Shown: one piece after another, positions 8,412 through 57,058 of the stretch
Position numbering within the stretch: position 1 is the stretch's first letter
How the letters are laid out: the number at the start of each line of letters is the position of its first letter
NCBI RefSeq assembly: GCF_010119205.1
Contig: NZ_WRXM01000003.1
Coordinates: 1 to 64,000 of the forward strand
Direction of reading: 5' to 3'
DNA length: 64,000 bases
Source: Haloarcula limicola
GTDB taxonomy: Archaea; Halobacteriota; Halobacteria; Halobacteriales; Haloarculaceae
The notes under the pieces: model-generated
Told to the model about the DNA's origin: nothing
Database searches by the model: none
Seen by the model: only the letters and a program-made list of their open reading frames with translations
Program-made: the position numbers and the translations under genes

Positions 8412-10127
8412 TCAGTCTCGGCCGTCGACCGGACCGGAGCAGTCGGGTTCGTCGCTCCCGCCGGAGCGGTCGGTCTTGTCGGTTCTGGTGGTCGGCAGCG
8501 CGTCGACGAACTCGACTCGCCGGGGACGCTTGTGCTTTCCCAATCTCTTCGCGACGAACGACTGCAGTTCGGCCGAGAGGTCGTCGTCTCCCGCCGCACT
8601 CTCTACCGGAACCACGGTGGCGACGACTCGCTCGCCCCGCTTCGGGTCGGGTTCGCTCCCGACGAGTGCGCCCGCGACGGCGGGATGCGCTTCCAGGGCG
8701 GCCTCGACTTCGAGCGGACTGACGCGGTAGCCCGCGCTGAGAACGAGGTCGTCCGCTCGACCGAGGTGGACGAGCGTCCCGTCGTCGCGAAATCGGCCCA
8801 CGTCGCCAGTCCACAATAGGTCGCCGTCGAGAACGGCCGCGGTCGCCGCCGGGTCGTCGAGGTATTCCCGCATGACCACGGGGTCGGGGTGCGCGACGGC
8901 GATCTCGCCGATTTCGCCGATCGGCACCGCCGCGCCCGACTCGTCGACGACGCGTACCTCGTGGCCGGGATAGGGTCGTCCGAGCCCGTCGTCGGTGCCG
9001 GGAGAGACGCGCTTGCACTCGCCGACCAGCGCGTTGGCCTCGGTCTGGCCGTACGACTCGTTGACCGTCGCGCCGAGGCGCTCCTCGGCCCAGTCGGCGA
9101 GCGCCGGCGGCAGGTGCTCCCCGCCGCACATCACCGTATCGAGGTCGGGAAGGTCCGCCGGCGACGGGTCCGTCTCTCGGCGTATCGCCCGCAGCGCCGT
9201 CGGCGGCAGGAAGGTGTGGGTCACCGACTGCGCTCCCGCGACCGAGAGCGCCGCTTCGGGATCGAACCCGCTCCGTCTCACTGACGAGACGACGGTGCCG
9301 CCGAGGGCGAGCGTCGGGAACACCACGTCGAACAGCGCGCCCGCCCACGCCCACTCCGAGGGCGTCCAGACGCGAGCGGCGCGGGCCGCTTTCGCCTCGA
9401 ACAGGCCGAACCAGCAGTGATAGCCCGGCAGCGACCCGAGCAGGTACTGATGGCCCTGTACCACGCCCTTCGGGTCGCTCGACGTCCCCGACGTGTACAG
9501 GACGAACGCGGGGTCGTCGGGCGCGGTCTCGACGATCGACGAGTCGGCCGCCCACTCCCGGTTCTCGACGAACGCACTCAACCCGCCCAGCGGACCGTCG
9601 CCGCCGTCGACACGCACGGGCACCGTCGCCTCGGGAGCCGCGTCTCGAACGCCATCGGCCGCTTCCCACCGTCGCTCGTCCACGACGAGTGCTGCCGCAT
9701 CGCTGTGTTTCAGCAGGTGAGCGACCGCCTCGTCGCCGAGCAGCATGGACGCCGGGACGACGACGCCGCCGAGTCGGAGGACGGCGAGGTGGCTCACGAC
9801 GAGTTCCGGACACTGCGGCAGACAGACGGCGACGCGGTCGCCCGCCTCGATTCCGGCACGACGAAATCGGCCCGCGAGTGCCGTCGACGCTGCCGCCAGG
9901 TCGCCGTAGCTGAGCGTGCGGACCGATGCCGGCTCCCCGTCGCCGTCGTGGGTGTCGCCACCGTCGGTTTCCGGGACGTGTCGCAGCGCGACGGCCTCGC
10001 GATCGCCCGACAGAACGTGGTCCGCGACGTTGTAGGTCGATGGAATCCGCCAGTCGAACCCCTCGACCAGTTCCTCGTAGCTCTCCGGCTCGGCCGGCAG
10101 CTCGTAGCCGGTCCAGGGGCTGCTCAT
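8412..10127 (-). CDS. AMP-dependent acyl-CoA synthetase/ligase
   Basis: Activates a carboxylic acid to its CoA thioester through an acyl-adenylate (ANL superfamily). The 571-residue protein has the AMP-binding motif YTSGTSSDPKGVV (211-223), the core motif NESYGQTEAN, the hinge LLWTGDVGRFRDDGTLVHLGRADD and near the C-terminus LPTTRTDKTDR with the probable catalytic lysine. It resembles acetyl-/medium-chain CoA ligases. Its start overlaps the end of the GH88 gene by 4 bp (ATGA), so the two are co-translated, an unusual pairing. The acid might derive from sugar breakdown or from acyl groups removed from a polysaccharide; this is inference. Confidence 0.9.
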   Translation of the reverse strand: MSSPWTGYELPAEPESYEELVEGFDWRIPSTYNVADHVLSGDREAVALRHVPETDGGDTHDGDGEPASVRTLSYGDLAAASTALAGRFRRAGIEAGDRVAVCLPQCPELVVSHLAVLRLGGVVVPASMLLGDEAVAHLLKHSDAAALVVDERRWEAADGVRDAAPEATVPVRVDGGDGPLGGLSAFVENREWAADSSIVETAPDDPAFVLYTSGTSSDPKGVVQGHQYLLGSLPGYHCWFGLFEAKAARAARVWTPSEWAWAGALFDVVFPTLALGGTVVSSVRRSGFDPEAALSVAGAQSVTHTFLPPTALRAIRRETDPSPADLPDLDTVMCGGEHLPPALADWAEERLGATVNESYGQTEANALVGECKRVSPGTDDGLGRPYPGHEVRVVDESGAAVPIGEIGEIAVAHPDPVVMREYLDDPAATAAVLDGDLLWTGDVGRFRDDGTLVHLGRADDLVLSAGYRVSPLEVEAALEAHPAVAGALVGSEPDPKRGERVVATVVPVESAAGDDDLSAELQSFVAKRLGKHKRPRRVEFVDALPTTRTDKTDRSGGSDEPDCSGPVDGRD

Positions 10128-44327: not shown

Positions 44328-45143
44328 CTACGTCTCGGCGGCGTCGATGACTTCGTAGTTGATGTTGTGCTGGTTCAGGCTGTCCGCGTGGGCGGCTACC
44401 TGGTCGGCCGCAGCCAGCAGGAGGACGTCGACTCCCTTGGTAGCGGCTTCTCGCACTGCCGCGGCGCTTCCGAATCGGATGTCCGCTTCGACCCCCGCCG
44501 TTTGTGCGGCAACGACGGCTTCGACGCCCGCTGTCGCGACCGCCGCGTACTCCCCGGCTAACTCCTCGATTCGCCGGGAATCGACCACCGAACTCCCCCC
44601 GTTTTGCACCATCGGTATCGAGACGACCGTCACCGCGCCGCGCTCGTATTCGACGACGCCCGTGACGTCCGTGACTCCGAGGTCCGTCCCGGCGGACGCG
44701 TCCGTCACCGCAACTGCAGTTGCACTTCCCGAGTCCCCCGGAACCGCCCGGAGTACCCCGTCCCGCATCGTCAGGGAGACCAGGTCCCCTTCGGCGATGT
44801 CCGTCGCGGCGACGACGGTCTCTATCTCCACCTGTCCGATGACGTCCTCGGAGACGTGTTCGACGAAGCGTCGGAGCTCGTCGGTCTGTGAGATCAGCCA
44901 GTTGACGCCCTCTTTGGTGACTTCGTATCGCCCCCGACCGTGTTTGGTGACGTATCCCTGCGCGCTGAGGTCCTGGAGATAGTCGCTCACCGCCTGTGAG
45001 GTGACGCCGATGGCGTCCGCGATCTCCTGCTGACTCACGGCGGGCTGTCGCTCGGCGATCTCCACCAGGATCTGGTATCGCGTGGCGTTGCGCTTGCTCC
45101 GGAGTACTCCGAACTCCTCGGACTCGTCCGTTCCCTCGGTCAT
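44328..45143 (-). CDS. Winged-helix transcriptional regulator next to the cobalamin genes
   Basis: A 271-residue protein with an N-terminal winged helix (about 13-85: RYQILVEIAERQPAVSQQEIADAIGVTSQAVSDYLQDL... GYVTKHGRGRYEVTKEGVNWL), then a linker helix and a C-terminal domain of about 165 residues rich in Val, Ala and Gly (VVAATDIAEGDLVSLTMRDG, AVTDASAGTDLGVTDVTGVV, VDVLLLAAADQVAAH) that I do not recognise and that may sense a ligand. It is divergent from cbiT across 146 bp containing the ACAA-N6-TTGT motif. The start follows the family-like MTEGTDESEE; upstream codons are A/T-rich promoter DNA. It is one candidate regulator of the cobalamin genes. Confidence 0.85.
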   Translation of the reverse strand: MTEGTDESEEFGVLRSKRNATRYQILVEIAERQPAVSQQEIADAIGVTSQAVSDYLQDLSAQGYVTKHGRGRYEVTKEGVNWLISQTDELRRFVEHVSEDVIGQVEIETVVAATDIAEGDLVSLTMRDGVLRAVPGDSGSATAVAVTDASAGTDLGVTDVTGVVEYERGAVTVVSIPMVQNGGSSVVDSRRIEELAGEYAAVATAGVEAVVAAQTAGVEADIRFGSAAAVREAATKGVDVLLLAAADQVAAHADSLNQHNINYEVIDAAET

Positions 45144-45246: not shown

Positions 45247-45260
45247 ACAACCAAAATTGT
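45247..45260. promoter_or_regulatory. Cobalamin-region operator ACAA-N6-TTGT, copy 1 (cbiT promoter)
   Basis: ACAACCAAAATTGT ends 29 nt before the cbiT ATG and runs into a TATA-like gttttac. It is embedded in TTGGTGTAATACAACCAA (45237-45254), which adds TTGGT/ACCAA arms. Matching sites occur before cbtB and between chlID and cobN. Confidence 0.7.
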
Positions 45261-45289
45261 TTTACGGCCCAAGTGAGTTGTTCAAGTCG

Positions 45290-45856
45290 ATGGCAGACGT
45301 CTCGCTCCCACACGACGCGAAGGCCGGCCCGACGAAGTCGGAAGTCAGGGCGGTCCTCCTCGGCAAACTCGCCCTCGGACCGACCGACCACTTCGTCGAG
45401 GTCGGTTCCTGTACGGGTGCCGTCACCGTCGAGGCGGCGCGCCGGGTCAGCCGAGTCACCGCGCTCGAACGCAAGGCCGAACGACTGCAGGTCACCGAGA
45501 GAAACCTGGAAGCGAACGACACCGACGCGGACGTGACCCTCCGCGAGGCGGAAGCGCCGGACGGGCTACCCGACGACGCCGACGCCCTGTTTCTCGGCGG
45601 CAGTCGGAACTACGAGGGCGTTCTGGACCACGCGGTCGAGACCGGCGTGAACCGGGTCGTGATGAACGTCTCCCGCCTCGAAGTCGCCGGCGAGGCGACG
45701 ACGGCGTTCCGCGAACGGGACCTGCTCGACGAGGTCGTCCAGTTCCAGGTGAGCCACGGGTACGAACTCGCCGGGGCCACGAGCTTCGACTCGCAGAACC
45801 CGGTGTACATGCTGGTCGGGTCCACCGCGCGCGCGACGGACGGGGGGAGTCGATGA
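45290..45856 (+). CDS. cbiT: Cobalt-precorrin-6B C15-methyltransferase/C12-decarboxylase subunit CbiT
   Basis: SAM-dependent methyltransferase of corrin-ring synthesis that methylates C15 and decarboxylates the C12 acetate. The 188-residue protein starts MADVSLPHDAKAGPTKSEVR, the CbiT substrate-binding N-terminus, then the SAM motif VEVGSCTGAVTVEAARR and LFLGGSRNYEGVL. Length matches archaeal CbiT. It is the first gene of a tightly packed operon; its stop overlaps the cbiL start by 4 bp. Expression is probably set by the motif 29 nt upstream. Confidence 0.93.
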   Translation: MADVSLPHDAKAGPTKSEVRAVLLGKLALGPTDHFVEVGSCTGAVTVEAARRVSRVTALERKAERLQVTERNLEANDTDADVTLREAEAPDGLPDDADALFLGGSRNYEGVLDHAVETGVNRVVMNVSRLEVAGEATTAFRERDLLDEVVQFQVSHGYELAGATSFDSQNPVYMLVGSTARATDGGSR

Positions 45857-46689
45857 CGCTGTACGGCGTCGGTCTCGGCCCGGGTCAGTCGGACCTGATG
45901 ACGGTTCGCGGACGGCGAGTCCTGGAAGACGCGGACGTGGTCTACTCCCCCGGACGGCTCTCGCGGTCGGTCGCCACCGAGCACGTCCCCGAAGCCCGCA
46001 TCGGCGACCTCGATTTTCCGATGACGCGCGACGCCGAGAAGCTCCGGTCAGCGTGGAAAGCGGCGGCGGCGGAGATAGCGCCGACCGCCCGCGACGGCAC
46101 CGCTGCGTTCGTCACGCTCGGCGACCCGAACGTCTACTCGACGTTCGGCCACCTCCGGCGGACGATGGCGGCGTTCCATCCCGACGTCGAACTCGAAGTC
46201 GTCCCCGGCGTCAGCGCCGTGACGGCCTTCGCGACCGCGCTGGGCGTCGAGATCACCGCCGGGTCGAGTCTCGCGCTGCGGGAGGCCGACGGCGGTATCT
46301 CGCCGACCGGTCCCGACCGGATGGTGCTATTCAAGGTGACCGACGCGCCGGCGACCCACGAGGGGCTGGTCGAGGCCGGCTACGACGTCGTCTACGGCCG
46401 CCGCCTGTTCATGGAGCAGGGCGAGACGCTCGTCACCGACGACCCGACCGGGATCGACGAGCGGGATTACTACACGCTGGCGTACGCGGAGCGGCCCGAA
46501 GCCCGCGTCGAACAGGCCACCGACGCCTTCCTCGAATCGGCCGACGAGAACGGCGTCGTCTCCGACGGGGGCGAGACGACGGGACCGAGGCGGGCCTCGA
46601 CGGGACGGCGTCCCGACGGGGGCGAATCGGATATCGCCCGACAGGAGCGCTCCGAGAGCGCGCTTTGCGGCGACGAGGTGCGGCGATGA
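45853..46689 (+). CDS. cbiL: Cobalt-factor II C20-methyltransferase CbiL
   Basis: Tetrapyrrole methylase of 278 residues: YGVGLGPGQSDLMTVRGRRVLEDADVVYSPG, VTLGDPNVYSTFGHLRRTM (the CbiL signature), VPGVSAVTAFATALG, and GYDVVYGRRLFM. It transfers the C20 methyl to cobalt-factor II. The last 45 residues or so (after DAFLESADENG) are a low-complexity Arg/Glu/Ser tail absent from most homologues and encoded by DNA with a GCGCTC-CGA-GAGCGC hairpin near 46,650, perhaps an added element. It overlaps cbiT and cbiF by 4 bp each. Confidence 0.93.
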   Translation: MTLYGVGLGPGQSDLMTVRGRRVLEDADVVYSPGRLSRSVATEHVPEARIGDLDFPMTRDAEKLRSAWKAAAAEIAPTARDGTAAFVTLGDPNVYSTFGHLRRTMAAFHPDVELEVVPGVSAVTAFATALGVEITAGSSLALREADGGISPTGPDRMVLFKVTDAPATHEGLVEAGYDVVYGRRLFMEQGETLVTDDPTGIDERDYYTLAYAERPEARVEQATDAFLESADENGVVSDGGETTGPRRASTGRRPDGGESDIARQERSESALCGDEVRR

Positions 46690-47570
46690 GCGGCGACGCC
46701 GAGACGGACCCGCAGACGGCCATCGACGCCGTGACGAACGACCAGGACGAACGGGTGTACGAACACAGCGCCGGCGACGAACGGGAGGGCATCCCCTTCG
46801 TCGGCGCTGGACCGGGCGACCCGCGCCTGCTGACCGTCGCCGGTCGGGAACTGCTCGCCGACGCCGACCTCGTCGTCCACGCCGGGTCGCTGGTCAACAG
46901 CGAACTGCTGGCGGAGTACTGCGTGGACGCCGAGACGGTCTCCTCCATCGGCAAGGACCTCGAAGAACTGATCCCGCTGATGCGGGACGCTTACGAGCGC
47001 GGCGAGACGGTCGTCCGCCTGCACAGCGGCGACCCGGCCATCTACGGCGCGGCGCTCGAACAGATGGACGCGCTGGAACACGAGGGCGTCCCCACCTACA
47101 TCGTCCCCGGCGTCACCTCGGCGTTCGCCGCCAGCGCCACTCTCAGAACCCAACTGACGCTGAACGAGGTCGCCAACCACGTCGCCTTCACCCGTCCGCA
47201 GGGGAAGACGCTGGACGAAGACGAGGACCACATCTCGGAGTTCGTCGGGATGGGCGACGTGACGACGTGCATCTATCTCGGGACTCACGCCGTGAGCGAG
47301 ACGATGGACCGCCTGCTGGACGATGGTCACGACCCCGAGACGCCCGTGGCCGCGGTGTATCACGCCTCGTGGCCCGACGAGGACGTCGTCGAGGGGACGA
47401 TCGAGACCATCGGTGAGAAACTGGAAGCGGCCGGCTATCGCGCCTCGGCGATGGTCGTCATCGGCGACGCGGTCGGCGGCGAGGAGTACGAGCGCTCGTT
47501 CCTCTACGGCGAGTGGGCGAACCGCTCCTCGGACGAGTCCGCTGATTCGACGGGGGAGGCCGACGACTAG
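46686..47570 (+). CDS. cbiF: Cobalt-precorrin-4 C11-methyltransferase CbiF
   Basis: Tetrapyrrole methylase of 294 residues with the CbiF hallmarks IPFVGAGPGDPRLLTVAGRELLADADLVVHAGSLVN (in order), VVRLHSGDPAIYGAALEQMDAL, YIVPGVTSAFAASATL, TRPQGKT and VAAVYHASWPDE. The first 35 residues are an acidic extension typical of haloarchaea. The start ATG overlaps the cbiL stop (ATGA). It is followed by a 399-bp gap, the only large break in this operon. Confidence 0.93.
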   Translation: MSGDAETDPQTAIDAVTNDQDERVYEHSAGDEREGIPFVGAGPGDPRLLTVAGRELLADADLVVHAGSLVNSELLAEYCVDAETVSSIGKDLEELIPLMRDAYERGETVVRLHSGDPAIYGAALEQMDALEHEGVPTYIVPGVTSAFAASATLRTQLTLNEVANHVAFTRPQGKTLDEDEDHISEFVGMGDVTTCIYLGTHAVSETMDRLLDDGHDPETPVAAVYHASWPDEDVVEGTIETIGEKLEAAGYRASAMVVIGDAVGGEEYERSFLYGEWANRSSDESADSTGEADD

Positions 47571-47969: not shown

Positions 47970-48941
47970 ATGAGCACGGACAACGACACAGACTCCGGTT
48001 CGAACAGTTGCAAAGCGCCCGACTCGGACGGCGAGGTGGCCGATGACATCGCCATCGTCGCCTTCGAGCGGAAGATGGACACCGCAGAGGAGATCGTCGA
48101 CGGCATCGGCGACCGCTACGAGTCGGTCGAGATCCTGGCGTACCACGGCGACGTCTTCGAGGAGCACTGGGGCGAGTACGACTGTTTCGTGGGGTTGATG
48201 GCCAGCGGCATCGCCATGCGCAAGACCGCCCATCTGCTCGACGACAAGTGGGACGACCCCGCCATCTGCGTCGTCGACGAGGAGCTGACGTGGGCGATCC
48301 CCATCACCGGCGGCCACCACGGCGCGAATCAGGTCGCCGACGACCTGGCGAGGATGGGCGCGGTGCCGGCGATGACCACCGCCAGCGAGGCGGCCGGCAA
48401 GCGGGGCGTCGAGAAGCAGGCGAAGGCGCTCGACGCCCACGTCGTCAACGGGGACTCGACGGTCGCCACGAACCTCGCGGTGCTCGACGACGAACTCGGC
48501 CCCGTGGAGCGACTCGACGGGCCGAGAGCGGTGCTCGTCGACGACGACGTGAGCGTGCTCAAGCGCAACGGGGACGACGGCGTCGTCCTCGGCTGCGGCA
48601 GCGTCGCAGGCACGGACGTCGAGCAGTTCCACGCCGCGTGGGACAGCGCGCTCGACGCGGCCGACTGCGACCGCGAGGACGTCGAGTTCGTCGCGACGGG
48701 CACCAGAAAAGCCGACGAGGCGGGGATGCTCGAAGCCGCCGAGGAGTGGGGACTCGGCGTCGTCGCCTTCGAGAAGGAGACGCTGACGGAGTTCGAAGGC
48801 CCCTCGCCCTCGCGCTCGAAGGAGCTCATCGGCTGGCCGGGCGTCGCGGAGTCGTCGGCCATCGCCGGCGGCCGGGAGCACGAGCTACTGGCCGAGAAGG
48901 CGCGCTACGACGAGGCCGTGACGGTGGCGGTCGGCCGATGA
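47970..48941 (+). CDS. cbiG: Cobalt-precorrin-5A hydrolase CbiG
   Basis: Opens the delta-lactone ring of cobalt-precorrin-5A and releases acetaldehyde, contracting the macrocycle. The 323-residue protein has DCFVGLMASGIAMRKTAHLL, VVDEELTWAIPITGGHHGANQVADDLA (CbiG N domain) and the C-terminal VLGCGSVAGTDVEQFHAAWDSAL and VATGTRKADEAGMLEAA. The first 22 residues are a polar tail with SNSCKAPDSD, a Cys motif echoed in the CbiH paralogue at 49,874. Its stop overlaps the next gene start by 4 bp. Confidence 0.92.
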   Translation: MSTDNDTDSGSNSCKAPDSDGEVADDIAIVAFERKMDTAEEIVDGIGDRYESVEILAYHGDVFEEHWGEYDCFVGLMASGIAMRKTAHLLDDKWDDPAICVVDEELTWAIPITGGHHGANQVADDLARMGAVPAMTTASEAAGKRGVEKQAKALDAHVVNGDSTVATNLAVLDDELGPVERLDGPRAVLVDDDVSVLKRNGDDGVVLGCGSVAGTDVEQFHAAWDSALDAADCDREDVEFVATGTRKADEAGMLEAAEEWGLGVVAFEKETLTEFEGPSPSRSKELIGWPGVAESSAIAGGREHELLAEKARYDEAVTVAVGR

Positions 48942-49870
48942 GTCGAGCGAACGACGACGGCGAAACGGCCTCGACCGCGGACGCGACGGGCGAGCGAGCC
49001 GACTACGGGACGCTGTACGTCGTCGGCATCGGCCCTGGACTCCCCCACGACATGACCCAGCGGGCGGGCGAGGTCATCCGACGCGCCGACACCGTCATCG
49101 CGTCGAACCTATATCAGGAGTTCCTGCGGAAAGACGGGACGCTCCCGCCGGAATCGGCCGCCGTCGAGGGCGCGGACGACGACGGCGAGATCGCCGGCGA
49201 GGTGGGGACCGTTCTGGAGCGACCCGACGGCGCGCGACAGACGCTCGTCCGCTCCTCGATGGGCAAGCAGGTCGAACTCGCCCGCGAGGCGTTCGAGCGA
49301 GTCCGCGCCGGGGAAGACGTGGCGCACGTCTCCGGCGGCGACCCGAACGTCTACGGGAAGTCGGACCTGCTGTTCACGATGGCCGACGCCGAGGACGCCG
49401 CCGACGTCCCCATCGAGATCGTCCCCGGCGTCACCGCCGCGCTCTCGGGCGCGGCGAACCTCGGCGCGCCGCTGTCGAACGACTTCTGTACGATCTCGCT
49501 GTCCGATAAGTGGCGCGGCTGGGAGGAAATCGAGGAGAAGCTCCGAGCGGCGGCCGTCAGCGGCTTCGTCGTCGTGCTGTACAACTGCTGGCGCGACTAC
49601 GAACGGGCGGTCGCGGTGTTGCGCGAGGAGCGGACCGACGACGCGCCCGCCGCCATCGTCAACGACGCCGGCCGCGGCGCGGCCGGCCGGAATCTCGACG
49701 ACGAGACGGAGACAATCACGACGCTCGGCGAGCTGCCCGAGCACAGCGAGGAGGTCGGCGGCATGGGCTCGTCCATCGTCGTCGGCACCCACGAGACCGA
49801 TGTCTGGAAGAACGACTACCGCGAGTTTCTCGTCACCCCGCGCGGCGGGCGTGACGTGGAGGATTTCTGA
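48938..49870 (+). CDS. cbiH: CbiH-like precorrin-3B C17-methyltransferase, paralogue 1
   Basis: Tetrapyrrole methylase of 310 residues: LYVVGIGPGLPHDMTQRAGEVIRRAD, AHVSGGDPNVYGKSDLLFTM, IVPGVTAALSGAANLGAPLSNDFCTISLSDKWRGW and MGSSIVVGTHETD. These match CbiH/CobJ but with an unusual SNLYQEFLRKDGTLPPES segment and an inserted loop after it. Cobalt-precorrin-3 ring contraction and C17 methylation is the expected step. A second CbiH is encoded 3 bp downstream; two copies are usual in haloarchaea and one may have another task. Confidence 0.88.
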   Translation: MSRANDDGETASTADATGERADYGTLYVVGIGPGLPHDMTQRAGEVIRRADTVIASNLYQEFLRKDGTLPPESAAVEGADDDGEIAGEVGTVLERPDGARQTLVRSSMGKQVELAREAFERVRAGEDVAHVSGGDPNVYGKSDLLFTMADAEDAADVPIEIVPGVTAALSGAANLGAPLSNDFCTISLSDKWRGWEEIEEKLRAAAVSGFVVVLYNCWRDYERAVAVLREERTDDAPAAIVNDAGRGAAGRNLDDETETITTLGELPEHSEEVGGMGSSIVVGTHETDVWKNDYREFLVTPRGGRDVEDF

Positions 49871-49873
49871 ATC

Positions 49874-50848
49874 ATGAGCACGGACGACACTACTGACGCG
49901 AGCACAGGGAGCGAATCGAACTGCGGCGGCGCGACCGACGACGCGAGTACCGAATCCGAGTCGAAGTGCGGGGCCTCGGCTTCGTCCCCCTCTTCGAGCA
50001 CCGGGTCCTGTGGTGCGACCGACGACCGGTCCGACGAGGAGGAAGTCGGGGCCACCGTCGACGACTTCGACGCGGACCCCGGTCGACTCGTCGCCGTCGG
50101 ACTCGGCCCGGGCCAGCCCGAGGGGATGACCGCGAAGGCCCGCTCGGCGCTTTCCGACGCCGAGCACATCGTCGGCTACACCACCTACGTCGAACTGCTC
50201 CCCGACGAGATCGTCGAGGGGGCCGAGGACATATACGACACGCCGATGTGCGGCGAGGTCTCCCGCACCGAGGAGGCCATCGATCGGGCGCTCGCGGGCA
50301 ACAGCGTCGCCATCATCGGCAGCGGCGACCCGAACGTCTACGCGCTGGCCGGGCTCGCCCTCGAGATCGTCGAGTCGAAGGGCGCGACCGCGTCGATGCT
50401 CGACTTCGACGTGGTTCCGGGCGTCCCGGCAGCCCAGTCGTGCGCGGCCCGCGTCGGCGCGCCGCTGGTCAACGACACCGTCTCGATCTCGCTGTCGGAC
50501 CACCTCACGGACATGCCGACCATCGAGTCGCGGCTCCACGCCGCGGCCAAGGAGGGATTCACCATCAGCGTCTACAACCCCTGGAGCCGCAAGCGACGGG
50601 ACAACTACGCGAAGTGCTGCGAGATCCTGCTGGAACACCGCGACCCCGAGACGCCGGTCGGCGTCGTCCACGCCGCCGGCCGCGAGGACGAGCGCGTCGA
50701 GATCGTCGAACTCGGCGACCTGCCCGAGCTGGGCGAGACCGACCTCGTGGACATGACGACGACGCTGCTGGTCGGCAACGAGGACACGTACGTCTGGGAC
50801 GACCGCATGGTGACCCCGCGCGGGTACGAGACGAAATACGATTACTGA
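49874..50848 (+). CDS. cbiH2: CbiH-like precorrin-3B C17-methyltransferase, paralogue 2, with Cys-repeat N-terminal tail
   Basis: A 324-residue protein. Residues from about 68 on are canonical CbiH/CobJ: LVAVGLGPGQPEGMTAKARSAL, HIVGYTTYVELLP, YDTPMCGEVSRTEEAIDRAL, VAIIGSGDPNVYALAGLALEI, VPGVPAAQSCAARVGAPLVND and YNPWSRKRRDNYAKCCEILL. The first 50 residues are disordered, Ser/Thr/Asp-rich, with three Cys in similar settings (SNCGGATDD, SKCGASASS, GSCGATDD). Of the two paralogues this one is the closer to the bacterial enzyme. It is followed at 2 bp by a ferredoxin gene. Confidence 0.92.
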   Translation: MSTDDTTDASTGSESNCGGATDDASTESESKCGASASSPSSSTGSCGATDDRSDEEEVGATVDDFDADPGRLVAVGLGPGQPEGMTAKARSALSDAEHIVGYTTYVELLPDEIVEGAEDIYDTPMCGEVSRTEEAIDRALAGNSVAIIGSGDPNVYALAGLALEIVESKGATASMLDFDVVPGVPAAQSCAARVGAPLVNDTVSISLSDHLTDMPTIESRLHAAAKEGFTISVYNPWSRKRRDNYAKCCEILLEHRDPETPVGVVHAAGREDERVEIVELGDLPELGETDLVDMTTTLLVGNEDTYVWDDRMVTPRGYETKYDY

Positions 50849-50850
50849 CG

Positions 50851-51165
50851 ATGTATCGAGTCACCATCGACCGCGAGGCCTGTGACGGCGTCTTCGCCTG
50901 TCTCGTCCGCGACGACCGGTTCGTGGAGGGCAGCGCGGAGCGAAGCCCCGCGGACCACTCGAGCGGGCAGCGCCCGCGAGAAGCCAGCGAGGGGCTGGCT
51001 GCCCTCGAAGTGGACGACGAACTGACCCTCGCGGCGACGTTCGACGACGACCGGCGAGCGGACGCCGAGGGGGCGGCCGCGGCCTGTCCGCTCGACGCCA
51101 TCAGCGTCGAGGACGCGACGGACGACCACACCGCCACCGTCGGCGTCGAGGAGGGCGAGCCGTGA
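50851..51165 (+). CDS. Ferredoxin-like Fe-S protein in the cobalamin operon
   Basis: A 104-residue protein of the single-cluster ferredoxin type: YRVTIDREACDGVFACLVRD at the N-terminus and AAAACPLDAISVEDA near the C-terminus. Only three cluster-type Cys (two in CDGVFAC, one in ACP) are present, so a 3Fe-4S cluster or a 4Fe-4S with an Asp ligand is possible. About 30 residues between the Cys groups (GSAERSPADHSSG and beyond) look like an inserted element shared with CobN. The stop overlaps the following gene by 4 bp. It probably donates electrons in corrin reduction. Confidence 0.82.
   Translation: MYRVTIDREACDGVFACLVRDDRFVEGSAERSPADHSSGQRPREASEGLAALEVDDELTLAATFDDDRRADAEGAAAACPLDAISVEDATDDHTATVGVEEGEP
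50930..50966 (+). repeat. 37-nt in-frame palindromic element, copy A
   Basis: This segment of the ferredoxin gene matches 33 of 37 bases of 59831-59867 in cobN. It contains the near-hairpin GCGGAGC-GAA-GCCCCGC and is read in the same phase in both genes, giving GSAERSPADHSSG here. Confidence 0.75.
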
Positions 51166-51821
51166 GCGCCGAGACCGACGCGCCGAACGACATGCTCGCG
51201 GCCCACCCCGAGACGGCGTACTTCTGGGGGCGCGTCGCCGGCGACGGCGACTGCGAGGACGGCTGTGTCACCGTGCGGACGACCGACGAGGCGGCGGCCG
51301 ACCGGCTCGCGGCGATCGCGGGAGCCGAGCGGACCGACCGCCGGACGGTCGAGCGGAACTACGCCCACGACACGTCGATAACGCGTCGCGAAGACGAATA
51401 CACCGTCCAAATCCTCGGTCCGCTCGCCGAACGCGCCAGCGGGGCGCTCGGCCTTCCGTTCGACGGCGAGTCCGGGGGGTATCGACTCGACCCGCTGACC
51501 GAGTACGACCGGGAGCTGCTCCGGGGCCTCGTCGAGGCCTGCGGGACGGTGTGTTTCAAATCGGACGACGACGCCGTCGGCCTCTCGTTCGTCCACGAGG
51601 ACGGGTCTCTCCTCTCGACGGTACAGTCGCTGCTCGACGGGATTCCCGTGACCGCGCCGTACGGCGAGCCGTCCGAGGCGTCGTCGGGCCACTGGTTCGG
51701 CGTCGACGACGCGGCGGTCCCGGCCGTGGGCGATTGGCTGTACGAGGGGAGCGAAGAGACGGGGCTGTTCGCGCCCAGTCGGCGGCGCAAGCTCCGGAAG
51801 AGCATCGAGCGGGTCCGATGA
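51162..51821 (+). CDS. LAGLIDADG-fold-like protein of unknown role in the cobalamin operon
   Basis: A 219-residue protein with two repeats of a LAGLIDADG homing-endonuclease pattern: AYFWGRVAGDGDC (19-31) and ELLRGLVEACGTVCF (118-132), each followed by beta strands (VTVRTTDEAAADRLAAI; VGLSFVHEDGSLLSTVQSLL). The C-terminus WLYEGSEETGLFAPSRRRKLRKS matches the end of such endonucleases. The second motif has Cys-Gly in place of the catalytic acidic residue, so cleavage is unlikely. No intein or intron surrounds it; it overlaps ferredoxin and cbiX genes by 4 bp, so it belongs to the operon. A DNA-binding regulator (as WhiA in bacteria) or a cofactor protein are both possible. Confidence 0.7.
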   Translation: MSAETDAPNDMLAAHPETAYFWGRVAGDGDCEDGCVTVRTTDEAAADRLAAIAGAERTDRRTVERNYAHDTSITRREDEYTVQILGPLAERASGALGLPFDGESGGYRLDPLTEYDRELLRGLVEACGTVCFKSDDDAVGLSFVHEDGSLLSTVQSLLDGIPVTAPYGEPSEASSGHWFGVDDAAVPAVGDWLYEGSEETGLFAPSRRRKLRKSIERVR

Positions 51822-53038
51822 GCGAAGCCACCGCCGCTCCCGCGCTCGACGACGAGGCGATCCTACTGGCCGGCCACGGGTCGCGCCGCGAGCGGTCCAA
51901 CGAACAGGTTCGCGAGTTGGCCGCGGAACTCGAAGGCAGACTCGGCGTCCCGGTCGACGCGGCGTTCCTCGAACTCGCCGAACCGGCCATCGACGACGCT
52001 ATCGCCGGACTCGCCGCGACCGTCTCGCGGGTGACGGTCGTCCACCTCTCGCTGTTCGCCGCCAGCCACGTCAAGAACGACGTCCCGCTGGCAGTCGCGC
52101 AGGCCCGTGAGTCCAACCCCGACCTGACGATCCACAACGGCGCGCATCTGGGTATCCACCCGGCGCTCCTGGACCTGCTCGACGACCGGGCGGCCGCCGT
52201 CGAAGCGGAACTGGGCGTCGACCGCGGGACGGACGAGATCTCCGTCGTCGTCTGTGCGCGGGGGTCGTCGGATCCGGACGCCAACGCCGACGTCCACAAG
52301 CTCGCCCGCCTGCTGTACGAGGGCCGCGAGTTCGACCGCTGCGAGGCGTCGTTCATCGGCGTCACCGAGCCGCGGCTCTCGGAGACGCTTCACGACGTCG
52401 CCAAGACGCGCCCCGACGCCGTCGTCGTCCTGCCGTACATGCTCGGCGACGGCGTGTTGACCGGGCGAATCAAGGAGGGCGCGCGAGAGTTCGACGGGGA
52501 GTACCCCTACGTCGACGCCGCGCCGGGCGACCCGCTCGGCACCGACTCGCGACTGCTGGACGTGCTCGGCGACCGCTGGCAGGAGGCCCGGACGGGCAGC
52601 GTCGAGATGTCCTGTGACACCTGTAAGTACAAGGTGGAACTCGACGGCTACGAGGATGATCAGGGCGGCGCGCGGGCGATGCTCCGGGCGCTGACCCACC
52701 AGGCCGAACACGCGGACCGCGAGGACGTGGCCGACGACCCGCACGTCCACGACGCCCCCGAGAAGCACGTCGCCGTCTGTACGAACCAGACCTGCGCCGC
52801 CGACGGCGCGCCCGCGGTCCTCGAACGACTGCGGCAGGCCGCCCGCGACAGCGACCGGTGCGACGCCCGAATCACGCGGTCGTCCTGTCTGGGCCGCTGC
52901 GGCGAGGGACCGATGGCCGCCGTCTACCCCGACGGCGTCTGGTACGGCGACCTCGACGAGGCGGACGCCGAGACCGTCGTCTCGTCGCACCTCGACCGCG
53001 ACCGCATCGTGAGCGAACTGGTCGACCAGACGCTGTGA
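51818..53038 (+). CDS. cbiX: Sirohydrochlorin cobaltochelatase CbiX with C-terminal 2Fe-2S domain
   Basis: Inserts Co2+ into sirohydrochlorin, the entry to the early-cobalt route. The 406-residue protein has two CbiX halves: ILLAGHGSRRERSNEQVREL with metal-binding H20, and HLSLFAASHVKNDVP with H84; then VVVCARGSSDPDANADVHKLARLL and VVVLPYMLGDGVLTGRIKEGA. After about residue 262 come SCDTCKYK (C266, C269) and a thioredoxin-like 2Fe-2S domain with C321, C326, C357 and C361 (CTNQTC ... SSCLGRCGEGP). Iron-sulphur-containing CbiX proteins are known; here it is a full second domain. The start overlaps the LAGLIDADG-like gene by 4 bp. Confidence 0.93.
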   Translation: MSEATAAPALDDEAILLAGHGSRRERSNEQVRELAAELEGRLGVPVDAAFLELAEPAIDDAIAGLAATVSRVTVVHLSLFAASHVKNDVPLAVAQARESNPDLTIHNGAHLGIHPALLDLLDDRAAAVEAELGVDRGTDEISVVVCARGSSDPDANADVHKLARLLYEGREFDRCEASFIGVTEPRLSETLHDVAKTRPDAVVVLPYMLGDGVLTGRIKEGAREFDGEYPYVDAAPGDPLGTDSRLLDVLGDRWQEARTGSVEMSCDTCKYKVELDGYEDDQGGARAMLRALTHQAEHADREDVADDPHVHDAPEKHVAVCTNQTCAADGAPAVLERLRQAARDSDRCDARITRSSCLGRCGEGPMAAVYPDGVWYGDLDEADAETVVSSHLDRDRIVSELVDQTL

Positions 53039-53065: not shown

Positions 53066-53437
53066 ATGAGCTGTTACGAGATCGAGGCCCTCAGACTGGG
53101 CCTCATGAACGTCCTCGGTACCGAAGACGAACACGCGCGCCGGCACGCGGAACGAGAGCTGGAAGGCCACGAGAGCGGCCCTATCGAGGCGCTGGCGAAC
53201 GCGGAGACGCTCGCGGCCGTCGAGCGCCACCTCGACGCCGCGCTCGTGGACCTAGAGGAGGAGATCGCGCGGACGGACGCGGACGCCGACGAGTACGACT
53301 ACATGCGCGGGCGACTCGTCGCCGTTCGGGACGCCGAGCGGGCGGTGAGCCGGATCACGACGCAGGGCGAGGACGTCCTCTCGGGCCTCGGCGAGGCCCA
53401 CGACGTGCTCCACGAGGCGTTTCCCGTCGATGAGTAG
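53066..53437 (+). CDS. DUF3209-family protein
   Basis: A 123-residue, helix-rich, acidic protein: MSCYEIEALRLGLMNVLGTEDEHARRHAERELEGHESGP at the start and a C-terminal SRITTQGEDVLSGLGEAHDVLHEAF. It matches what I recall of DUF3209, found mostly in haloarchaeal cobalamin clusters, with a conserved early Cys and several His (H25, H29, H37, H99-type positions) that could bind metal. It lies 27 bp after cbiX on the same strand. Function unknown; a cobalt-handling or assembly role would fit. Confidence 0.82.
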   Translation: MSCYEIEALRLGLMNVLGTEDEHARRHAERELEGHESGPIEALANAETLAAVERHLDAALVDLEEEIARTDADADEYDYMRGRLVAVRDAERAVSRITTQGEDVLSGLGEAHDVLHEAFPVDE

Positions 53438-53507: not shown

Positions 53508-53521
53508 ACAACCAATCTTGT
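53508..53521. promoter_or_regulatory. Cobalamin-region operator ACAA-N6-TTGT, copy 2 (cbtB promoter)
   Basis: ACAACCAATCTTGT ends 21 nt before the cbtB ATG and runs into ttcttttgc, a possible TATA element. It matches copy 1 at 12 of 14 positions, and the preceding ttt/aat A/T bases are also shared. Confidence 0.7.
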
Positions 53522-54961: not shown

Positions 54962-57052
54962 TCACCGCTCGGCGACCGCGTCGATCCGCTCGGCGGTCAG
55001 CGCCGAGAGCGGGACGACGGCGGCGTCGGTGGCCGAGGCGACGGCGTCGGTCAGCCCCGCCCGCGTCTCCGCCCCGGCGTCGACGACGACCGTCCGGTCG
55101 GCGACCGCTCCGAGTCGGTCGGCCGCGTCCCGAGTCGCCGCCGTCGGACTCCCCTCGGCGGTGTTGGACTTGCCGTCCGTGACGACGACGGCGACGGCCG
55201 CCTCGGGGTCCGCTCGGGTCAGCACCTCGGCGGCGGTCGAGAGGCCGGCCGGGAGCGGCGTCCGGTCGCCGGTGGGCAGGTCCTTCAGGTGGCGAGCGGC
55301 CAGCGAGACGCTGTCGGTCGGCGGGAGGACCACGTCGGCGTCCTCGCCGGCGAAGGTGACGACGGCCACCTCGTCGCGGGCCTGATAGGCGTCTCTCAGC
55401 AGTTCGAGGACGCAGCCCTTCGCGGCCCGCATCGCCGGCCGCATCGACGCGCTGGCGTCGACGGCGAAGACGACCAGCGTGCCGGCGTCGCCCTTTCGAA
55501 CCGACCGGCGGAGGTCGCGGGAACTGACTCGTCCGCTCCCGCGCCGTGCCGCCGCGCGGACCGAGGCGGCGGCGTCGACGGTGTCGCTCTCTCCGGCGCG
55601 TTCGGTTCGGACGGTCGCACCCCGGTCGGTCCCCGCGGCGGTCGCCCGCCCGCTCGCGGCGCTCCCGTCGGCGTCGACCGTCGGCGACTCGATATCGGGT
55701 CGGGCGCTGTCACCGACTGCGGCGCGGGACTGACCGGGGAGTAACGGCGCCGCGTCTTCCCGGTCTGTGTCGTCGTCCTCGCCCGGGCGCTCGCTCTCAC
55801 CGTTACTCGCCTCGGCCAGCCGTGGCTCACCGGCGTCGGCGGTATCGTCGTCCTCGTCCGCGGAACCCGTCGAATCCGACTCTCCAGTGCCCGTCAGCTC
55901 GCCGTCGGAGGCCCCGTCGTCGCCCGAACCGCTCTCGTTCTCGCCCTCTTCGGCTTCGCCGTCGCTCTCCTCGGTTTCATCGCCGCTCCCCCCGGACTCG
56001 GCGTCCGACTGCTCGTCGTCCGAGGCCTCGTCCTCGAAGTGGTCGTCGAGGACGTCCTCGACGGCGGGCGCGCTCTCGAAGGGGTCGGACCGCAGCCGGT
56101 GCGGGAGCGCGAAGCTCGCCGCCCGCTCCACGTCCGTCTCCAGCACCGCCGTCCGCCCGTCGAGCGCGGCGAACGTCCGAGCGGCGCGGGCGGTGGCGAT
56201 GTCGGCGCGGTGCCCGTCCACGCCGGCGTCCCGGCAGAGCTCGGCGATCGACTCGCGGAACTCGCGGGCCAGTTCGACGTCGTCGAGTAGCTCGCGGGCG
56301 GTGTGCAGCCGGTCGGCCGGTGACTGTGTCCGTTCGTCGTCCTCGCCGTCCGTGTCGTCGACCTGCCCATCGAGCGCTCGATCGATGATGCTCACACGCT
56401 CTTCGATCGGCTCGCAGGCCGTCACCTCGGTCTGGAGCGCGAACCGGTCCCTGAGCTGCGGGCGGAGGTCGCCCTCCTCGGGATTCATCGTCCCGACGAG
56501 CGTGAACTCGGCGGGGTGCGTGACGGTCACGCCGTCGCGCTCGACCCGATTGTAGCCGCTCGCGGCGGCGTCGAGCAACACGTCGACGAGGTGGTCGTCC
56601 AGCAGGTTCACCTCGTCCACGTAGAGGATCCCCCGGTTAGCCCGCGCGAGCAGGCCCGGGTCGAACTCGGCGTCGCCGGCCAGCGCGTCGGCGACCGAGA
56701 GCGTGCCGACGACGCGGTCCCGCGTGGCTCCGAGCGGCAGCGTCACCAGCGGCGTGGACCGTTCCTCGACGGGCGGGTCATCGCGCTCACGACAGTCGGA
56801 ACACTGGTTATCGGGGTCGTCGGGGGGACACCCGTACGGACAGTCCGCGACCGCTCGCTGCGCGGGCAACAGCCCCGCGAGCGCTCGCACCGCCGTCGAC
56901 TTCGCCGTGCCCTTCTCGCCGCGAATCAGCAGTCCGTCGAGACCGTCGTCGGCCGCGACGGCCAGCAACCCCTCTTTGAGGTCGCGCTGCCCCACGACCG
57001 CCTCGAAGGCCGGTGCCTGCGAAGCTTTTTTGTCCGCACCGAATACAACCAT
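54962..57052 (-). CDS. chlID: ChlI/ChlD-type AAA+ and VWA protein (cobaltochelatase CobS/T-like partner of CobN)
   Basis: A 696-residue fusion that replaces CobS and CobT. The AAA+ part (about 10-330) has Walker A LLIRGEKGTAKSTAVRAL, a Cys cluster DCPYGCPPDDPDNQCSDC, Walker B GILYVDEVNLLDDHLVDVLL and sensor TMNPEEGDLRPQL. A very acidic Glu/Asp/Ser/Gly linker (about 340-470) follows, then a VWA domain with the MIDAS motif VFAVDASASMRPAMRAAK, VTFAGEDADVVLP and VVVTDGKSNT. ATP hydrolysis drives CobN to insert cobalt. ATG 57052 is preferred (TATA-like ttattaaaac about 27 nt upstream); a GTG at 57067 is an alternative. It is divergent from cobN. Confidence 0.92.
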   Translation of the reverse strand: MVVFGADKKASQAPAFEAVVGQRDLKEGLLAVAADDGLDGLLIRGEKGTAKSTAVRALAGLLPAQRAVADCPYGCPPDDPDNQCSDCRERDDPPVEERSTPLVTLPLGATRDRVVGTLSVADALAGDAEFDPGLLARANRGILYVDEVNLLDDHLVDVLLDAAASGYNRVERDGVTVTHPAEFTLVGTMNPEEGDLRPQLRDRFALQTEVTACEPIEERVSIIDRALDGQVDDTDGEDDERTQSPADRLHTARELLDDVELAREFRESIAELCRDAGVDGHRADIATARAARTFAALDGRTAVLETDVERAASFALPHRLRSDPFESAPAVEDVLDDHFEDEASDDEQSDAESGGSGDETEESDGEAEEGENESGSGDDGASDGELTGTGESDSTGSADEDDDTADAGEPRLAEASNGESERPGEDDDTDREDAAPLLPGQSRAAVGDSARPDIESPTVDADGSAASGRATAAGTDRGATVRTERAGESDTVDAAASVRAAARRGSGRVSSRDLRRSVRKGDAGTLVVFAVDASASMRPAMRAAKGCVLELLRDAYQARDEVAVVTFAGEDADVVLPPTDSVSLAARHLKDLPTGDRTPLPAGLSTAAEVLTRADPEAAVAVVVTDGKSNTAEGSPTAATRDAADRLGAVADRTVVVDAGAETRAGLTDAVASATDAAVVPLSALTAERIDAVAER

Positions 57053-57058
57053 ACTTGT
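57045..57058. promoter_or_regulatory. Cobalamin-region operator ACAA-N6-TTGT, copy 3 (chlID-cobN divergent promoter)
   Basis: ACAACCATACTTGT ends 29 nt before the cobN ATG, exactly the spacing seen at cbiT, and on the other strand it covers the chlID start codon at 57052. One protein bound here could control both chelatase genes. Confidence 0.7.

Follow-up and report, generated by a model that had tools for sequence, protein, structure and literature searches.

To our knowledge, the domesticated LAGLIDADG proteins (WhiA, HO and the maturases) all act on nucleic acid. WhiA (DUF199) consists of a LAGLIDADG domain and a C-terminal helix-turn-helix (HTH) and is an example of this fold put to another use. 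The gene studied here belongs to a different setting, the haloarchaeal cobalamin cluster, in which HVO_B0055 of Haloferax volcanii is one of four genes without an assigned function (PMC8305020). The haloarchaeal pathway has two consecutive gaps, EC 2.1.1.195 and EC 1.3.1.106, and the cluster genes without an assigned function were named as candidates to fill them (PMC8305020). HVO_B0055 itself lies between a ferredoxin gene and cbiX and is labelled 'cobalamin biosynthesis protein' in public records; besides PMC8305020, we found it named nowhere in the literature searched. The His tail of CbiX-L has been suggested as a store from which metal is delivered (PMC7689651), and the late-pathway Co(II) metallochaperone CobW is a G3E GTPase serving CobNST (PMC10206600).

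A LAGLIDADG-fold gene within a cobalt-early cobalamin cluster

We analysed a window of 64,000 nt of Haloarcula limicola (positions 1 to 64,000 of contig NZ_WRXM01000003.1), which contains a cobalt-early cobalamin cluster in the order cbiT, cbiL, cbiF, cbiG, cbiH1, cbiH2, Fer4_15 ferredoxin, LAGLIDADG-fold gene, 2Fe-2S-tailed cbiX, DUF3209, cbtA, chlID and cobN. Families of the cluster genes were taken from Pfam, and the names chlID and cobN from the published Haloferax cluster (PMC8305020) and public annotation. The features are as follows.

44328..45110, − strand: regulator with winged HTH and DUF7839, divergent from the operon; its upstream start is provisional
45247..45260, no strand: operator-like palindrome ACAACCAAAATTGT, upstream of cbiT, exact ACAA-N6-TTGT
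45257..45856, + strand: cbiT (Pfam); start as listed, the true start may be an ATG slightly downstream
45853..46689, + strand: cbiL (TP_methylase, Pfam)
46686..47570, + strand: cbiF (TP_methylase, Pfam)
47970..48941, + strand: cbiG (Pfam)
48938..49870, + strand: cbiH1 (TP_methylase, Pfam)
49874..50848, + strand: cbiH2 (TP_methylase, Pfam)
50851..51165, + strand: single-cluster 4Fe-4S ferredoxin, Fer4_15 (Pfam); HVO_B0056 by gene order
51162..51821, + strand: LAGLIDADG-fold protein, 219 aa; HVO_B0055 orthologue by gene order, with orthologues in 194 of 392 Halobacteriales genomes
51222..51248, + strand: first LAGLIDADG motif FWGRVAGDG (residues 21-29); the catalytic position D28 is unconserved
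51519..51545, + strand: second motif LRGLVEACG (residues 120-128); Cys127 replaces the catalytic acid, and the invariant Cys131 comes after the motif
51818..53038, + strand: CbiX-type cobaltochelatase with an MxCxxC motif and a C-terminal thioredoxin-like 2Fe-2S domain (Pfam, comparison of loci)
53066..53437, + strand: DUF3209 protein (Pfam), which accompanies every 2Fe-2S-tailed CbiX in the loci read
53508..53521, no strand: operator-like palindrome upstream of a small ORF (CbtB-like) and cbtA, exact ACAA-N6-TTGT
57045..57058, no strand: operator-like palindrome between the divergent chlID and cobN, exact ACAA-N6-TTGT

The gene of interest starts with GTG. As an earlier note on this DNA had described, it overlaps both of its neighbours by 4 bp; the overlap is GTGA (51162-51165) with the ferredoxin gene and ATGA (51818-51821) with cbiX. 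Judged by gene order, it is HVO_B0055. Neither its LAGLIDADG kinship nor its pattern of absence was found in the literature searched.

The predicted structure is a double LAGLIDADG fold

Searched alone against Pfam, NCBIfam and PDB sequences, the window protein gave no matches, and searching PDB sequences with a profile returned chance matches only. AlphaFold, run with 29 relatives, predicted a double LAGLIDADG fold (pLDDT 87, pTM 0.86), in which the topology α-β-β-α-β-β-α occurs twice in one chain and is followed by a C-terminal helix (residues 205-218). Both LAGLIDADG-type helices and the C-terminal helix, which the earlier note had read from the translation, are thus found in their places, and the repeat topology whose lack would have refuted that reading is predicted. 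The best matches of the predicted model among solved structures all belong to the LAGLIDADG family: I-Tsp061I (Z 15.6 over 177 residues), the two proteins singled out for comparison beforehand, I-DmoI (Z 15.3) and WhiA (Z 14.2), and the bI3 maturase (Z 12.2). Profile searches pointed the same way. Of 29 members, 15 matched Pfam LAGLIDADG_3 (3.6e-5 at best), the window protein itself not being among them, and hhalign aligned the family with a haloarchaeal intein endonuclease profile over 186 columns and both repeats (P 92.6, p 4.5e-7), while seven neighbour gene families used as negative controls reached at most 1.2. Fold and descent therefore agree, since the predicted structure matches, LAGLIDADG_3 and the intein-profile alignment concur.

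The protein shares the two-repeat fold and full-length profile similarity with I-DmoI, I-Tsp061I and the LAGLIDADG_3 intein domains. In contrast to these archaeal double-motif endonucleases, it lacks conserved catalytic acids and is encoded by a fixed operon gene that is not mobile. Unlike WhiA, it is archaeal, is encoded in a metabolic operon and has no HTH: no HTH family matched, and the two repeats fill all 219 residues. Net charge did not separate it from its neighbours or from intein domains.

Catalytic residues are not conserved, and the gene is under purifying selection

In an alignment of 52 members, position 28, the first of the two catalytic positions, is D in 58% and S in 19%, the rest being mostly N, G or A, and the second (127) is Cys in 51 (98%), in agreement with the acid that the earlier note had found missing from the second motif. 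An acid thus does not end both motif helices, as it would in a nuclease. Nor is the gene part of an intron, an intein or a mobile gene at varied loci; as previously claimed, it lies outside such elements, and it occupies one operon slot in nearly all loci. Homologues scattered among unrelated loci with intact catalytic acids would be the mark of an active endonuclease family; we observed the contrary, nearly always a single slot, and unconserved acids. Judged from these residues, the protein is not a nuclease, and its domestication is near certain.

Eighteen other positions are strictly kept in the 52 members (A19, Y20, W22, G23, H69, G122, E125, G128, C131, G140, S142, F143, S174, F179, Y194, L202, R207 and K210), and conservation is stronger in the second repeat than in the first, where R39 is kept in 65%. 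A dN/dS of 0.05-0.28 indicates purifying selection. The protein nevertheless evolves faster than the surrounding enzymes, with a median identity of 57% versus 75-78%. One member (L099, genome G200, 8748-9566) is 272 aa long owing to an internal insertion of ∼50 residues, and no ferredoxin gene was found adjoining it.

The gene is nearly fixed in haloarchaeal cobalamin clusters

Globally, the protein and CbiG occur together in 192 of 392 Halobacteriales genomes, the protein alone in 2, CbiG alone in 7 and neither in 191, so that 192 of the 199 haloarchaeal genomes with CbiG encode it; p-values for this co-occurrence ignore shared ancestry. Within the family of the source organism (146 genomes), 81 encode the protein, 82 CbiG and 80 both. 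A sample of genomes from the phylum yielded no member outside haloarchaea. We also rejected a weak match in G134 (L048), which is not a homologue, as the locus consists of ordinary genes and the frame contains a stop.

The order cbiH2, ferredoxin, LAGLIDADG-fold gene, cbiX and DUF3209 is nearly constant in the loci read, and 4-bp overlaps are the commonest spacing around the gene. The slot between ferredoxin and cbiX, whose conservation had been suggested as a check, is kept in nearly all loci. This near-constant place by cbiX in B12-making haloarchaea suggests that the protein was probably recruited to help B12 synthesis. A role tied to corrin synthesis, together with domestication, is in our view very probable. 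The cluster is broken up in G155, where a divergent copy (32% identical; L098, 6445-9454) lacks His145 and Arg75 and lies outside the cobalamin cluster, flanked by two cation-efflux transporter genes and beside a rhodanese gene; cbiX and DUF3209 still adjoin each other elsewhere in this genome. The 247.6-kb record of Haloarcula rara plasmid CP119786 contains the cobalamin stretch twice, once near each end (L051 and L052), which may reflect an unresolved overlap of a circular plasmid rather than a duplication.

Clusters without the protein carry a CbiX with a His-rich tail

Seven CbiG genomes lack the LAGLIDADG-fold protein (G067, G068, G154, G156, G182, G306 and G245), and all seven carry a CbiX with a His-rich tail. 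The first six also lack the ferredoxin, DUF3209 and the CbiX 2Fe-2S tail. Five of the six form one deep clade in a tree built from CbiF, CbiG and CbiH2; G154 lies on a long branch whose place is unsure. G245 lies within the clade that has the protein, and relatives of its cluster keep the gene. Here, the 4-bp overlap with the ferredoxin gene that normally holds the start of the LAGLIDADG-fold gene holds that of a His-tailed CbiX, which is followed by the normal Fe-S-tailed cbiX and DUF3209. All eight His-tailed CbiX group together in a quick tree (moderate support); this grouping is all that we used from the tree, because one frameshifted row (L157) disturbs it. At L157 (G302), a frame change interrupts each of cbiG and cbiX, the remaining cluster being intact. 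G114 encodes the LAGLIDADG-fold protein together with a His-tailed CbiX, without DUF3209. A strict either/or therefore fails in this genome, and the two proteins are not strict alternatives.

In every locus read (including L050, L119-L120 and L150-L154), the CbiX 2Fe-2S tail and DUF3209 either both occurred or were both missing. Loci whose CbiX has a His-rich tail have no DUF3209; the exception is G245, where both CbiX types occur. DUF3209 is predicted to be all-helical (pLDDT 95) and matches the Thermus thermophilus structural-genomics protein TTHB059 (2ehw, E 3e-5). Its invariant residues (Cys3, Glu5, Glu7, His27, His55, His112 and His116) suggest a metal site. Five loci (L119, L120, L151, L152 and L154) represent another type of cobalamin ring cluster in haloarchaea, deeply separated from the first and common to two families; three of the five are in genomes without haem-copper oxidase, and transfer among anaerobes is possible.

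A tentative role near cobalt insertion

We tentatively propose that the LAGLIDADG-fold protein acts, without being a nuclease, as an accessory factor at the step of cobalt insertion or close to it, and we infer the following mechanism. A dead LAGLIDADG protein, kin of archaeal intein endonuclease domains, would have been taken once into the cobalt-early cluster, in the ancestor of the aerobic-type haloarchaeal cluster, and inherited with the cluster since. The concave face of its second repeat would be lined by the near-invariant Glu125, Cys127, Thr129, Cys131, Lys/Arg133, Ser142, Ser174 and Ser175; Cys131 and Thr129 are expected to face the groove from the family topology, as in I-CreI, not from coordinates. 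The corresponding face of other LAGLIDADG members contacts DNA. In the haloarchaeal protein, the groove would hold Co(II) or (cobalt-)sirohydrochlorin, which would be passed to or from the chelatase CbiX, and the His-rich tail of CbiX would do the same job where the protein is absent.

The link to cobalt insertion derives from the seven CbiG genomes without the protein, all of which have the His-tailed CbiX, and the idea of a shared job from G245, where this CbiX occupies the exact slot of the gene; such in-place replacement was seen in this one genome. We also count in favour of this role the metal storage and delivery suggested for the CbiX-L tail (PMC7689651) and the cation-efflux neighbours of the G155 copy. 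Counting against it are the co-occurrence of the protein and a His-tailed CbiX in G114, the loss of His145 and Arg75 from the G155 copy, the conserved Arg207 and Lys210 of the last helix, which would suit nucleic acid too, and the fact that CbiK, which is the chelatase at this step elsewhere, works without a metallochaperone (PMC10206600). An accessory role at cobalt insertion would resemble that of CobW, with which we claim no kinship in sequence or fold, CobW being a GTPase. The more specific proposal, that a homing-endonuclease fold has come to handle cobalt or a tetrapyrrole as a partner of the early cobaltochelatase, is possible but somewhat doubtful.

Alternative functions

The protein could instead be a non-cutting, nucleic-acid-binding regulator that controls the cobalamin genes, acting like WhiA on DNA or like a maturase on the operon mRNA. 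Its fold, common with WhiA and the bI3 maturase, would suit such a function, as would the invariant Arg207 and Lys210, the conserved Lys/Arg133 and an evolution faster than that of nearby enzymes. The earlier note had suggested that it binds ACAA-N6-TTGT. All three sites match exactly, at 45247, 53508 and 57045, and as near-identical palindromes they likely mark a cobalt/B12 regulon. The site before cbiT was exact in 41 of 52 loci, including those of G156 and G182, which lack the protein, and was kept with one mismatch in G067, G068, G154 and G306, which lack it as well; most genomes without the protein also keep a one-mismatch site before cobN. The winged-HTH regulator with DUF7839, encoded beside the operon, was present in 30 of 30 genomes tested. 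As the sites persist without the protein and the HTH regulator is universal, the suggested binding is unsupported and we dropped it; the HTH-DUF7839 regulator is, we infer, more likely to read these sites. No exact site was found upstream of the LAGLIDADG-fold gene or cbiX, the HTH domain of WhiA is missing, and the first repeat is poorly conserved (R39 and position 28, above), unlike in a reader of two half-sites. We therefore consider a regulator of either kind unlikely.

Another reading has the protein assist the ferredoxin and the Fe-S-tailed CbiX, as their partner in assembly or redox chemistry, and so let the oxygen-sensitive cobalt-early pathway run in air. This would account for the joint absence of ferredoxin, LAGLIDADG-fold protein, CbiX 2Fe-2S tail and DUF3209 from six genomes, four of which also lack the haem-copper oxidase COX1, present in all 22 protein-bearing genomes that were tested. 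However, the genomes without the protein represent few lineages (one deep clade and G154), so that the link to COX1 is only a hint. Moreover, G067, G068 and G245 lack the protein yet have COX1, and G200 and G136 have the protein but no ferredoxin in the cluster. We regard this partnership as rather unlikely.

Could the protein be the enzyme that fills the CbiD methylation or the CbiJ reduction gap? Both gaps are real, since neither CbiD nor CbiJ was found above the cut-off in any of the 146 genomes of the source organism's family (0/146 each), and unassigned cluster genes are the published candidates (PMC8305020). A replacement would, however, be expected in every cluster lacking both enzymes, and two genomes among the 146, G067 and G068, keep cbiT, cbiL, cbiF, cbiG, cbiH1, cbiH2 and cbiX without the protein, the ferredoxin, CbiD or CbiJ. 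If they make B12, as we assume, something else fills the gap. The predicted structure, too, shows no methyltransferase or reductase fold. Of the earlier suggestion that the protein serves an unassigned corrin step, a role in the cobalamin operon thus stands, whereas catalysis of a missing step is weakened, and we consider a gap enzyme improbable. Finally, the LAGLIDADG fold and homology would also fit a homing endonuclease, either working or recently dead, that lies in the operon by chance, but unconserved catalytic positions, a single locus, vertical inheritance, purifying selection and the absence of an intron or intein make this extremely improbable.

Implications

For haloarchaeal B12 synthesis, a gene of the published pathway gains a predicted structure and a defined set of residues, and genomes that presumably run the pathway without the LAGLIDADG-fold protein are now identified. 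If the protein does handle cobalt or a tetrapyrrole for the early cobaltochelatase, it would be the first LAGLIDADG protein with a non-nucleic-acid ligand, and no accessory factor for early cobalt insertion would have been known before it. A LAGLIDADG protein fixed in a biosynthetic operon of ∼190 sampled species, its catalytic acid replaced by a near-invariant Cys, tests the capacity of this fold for other work.
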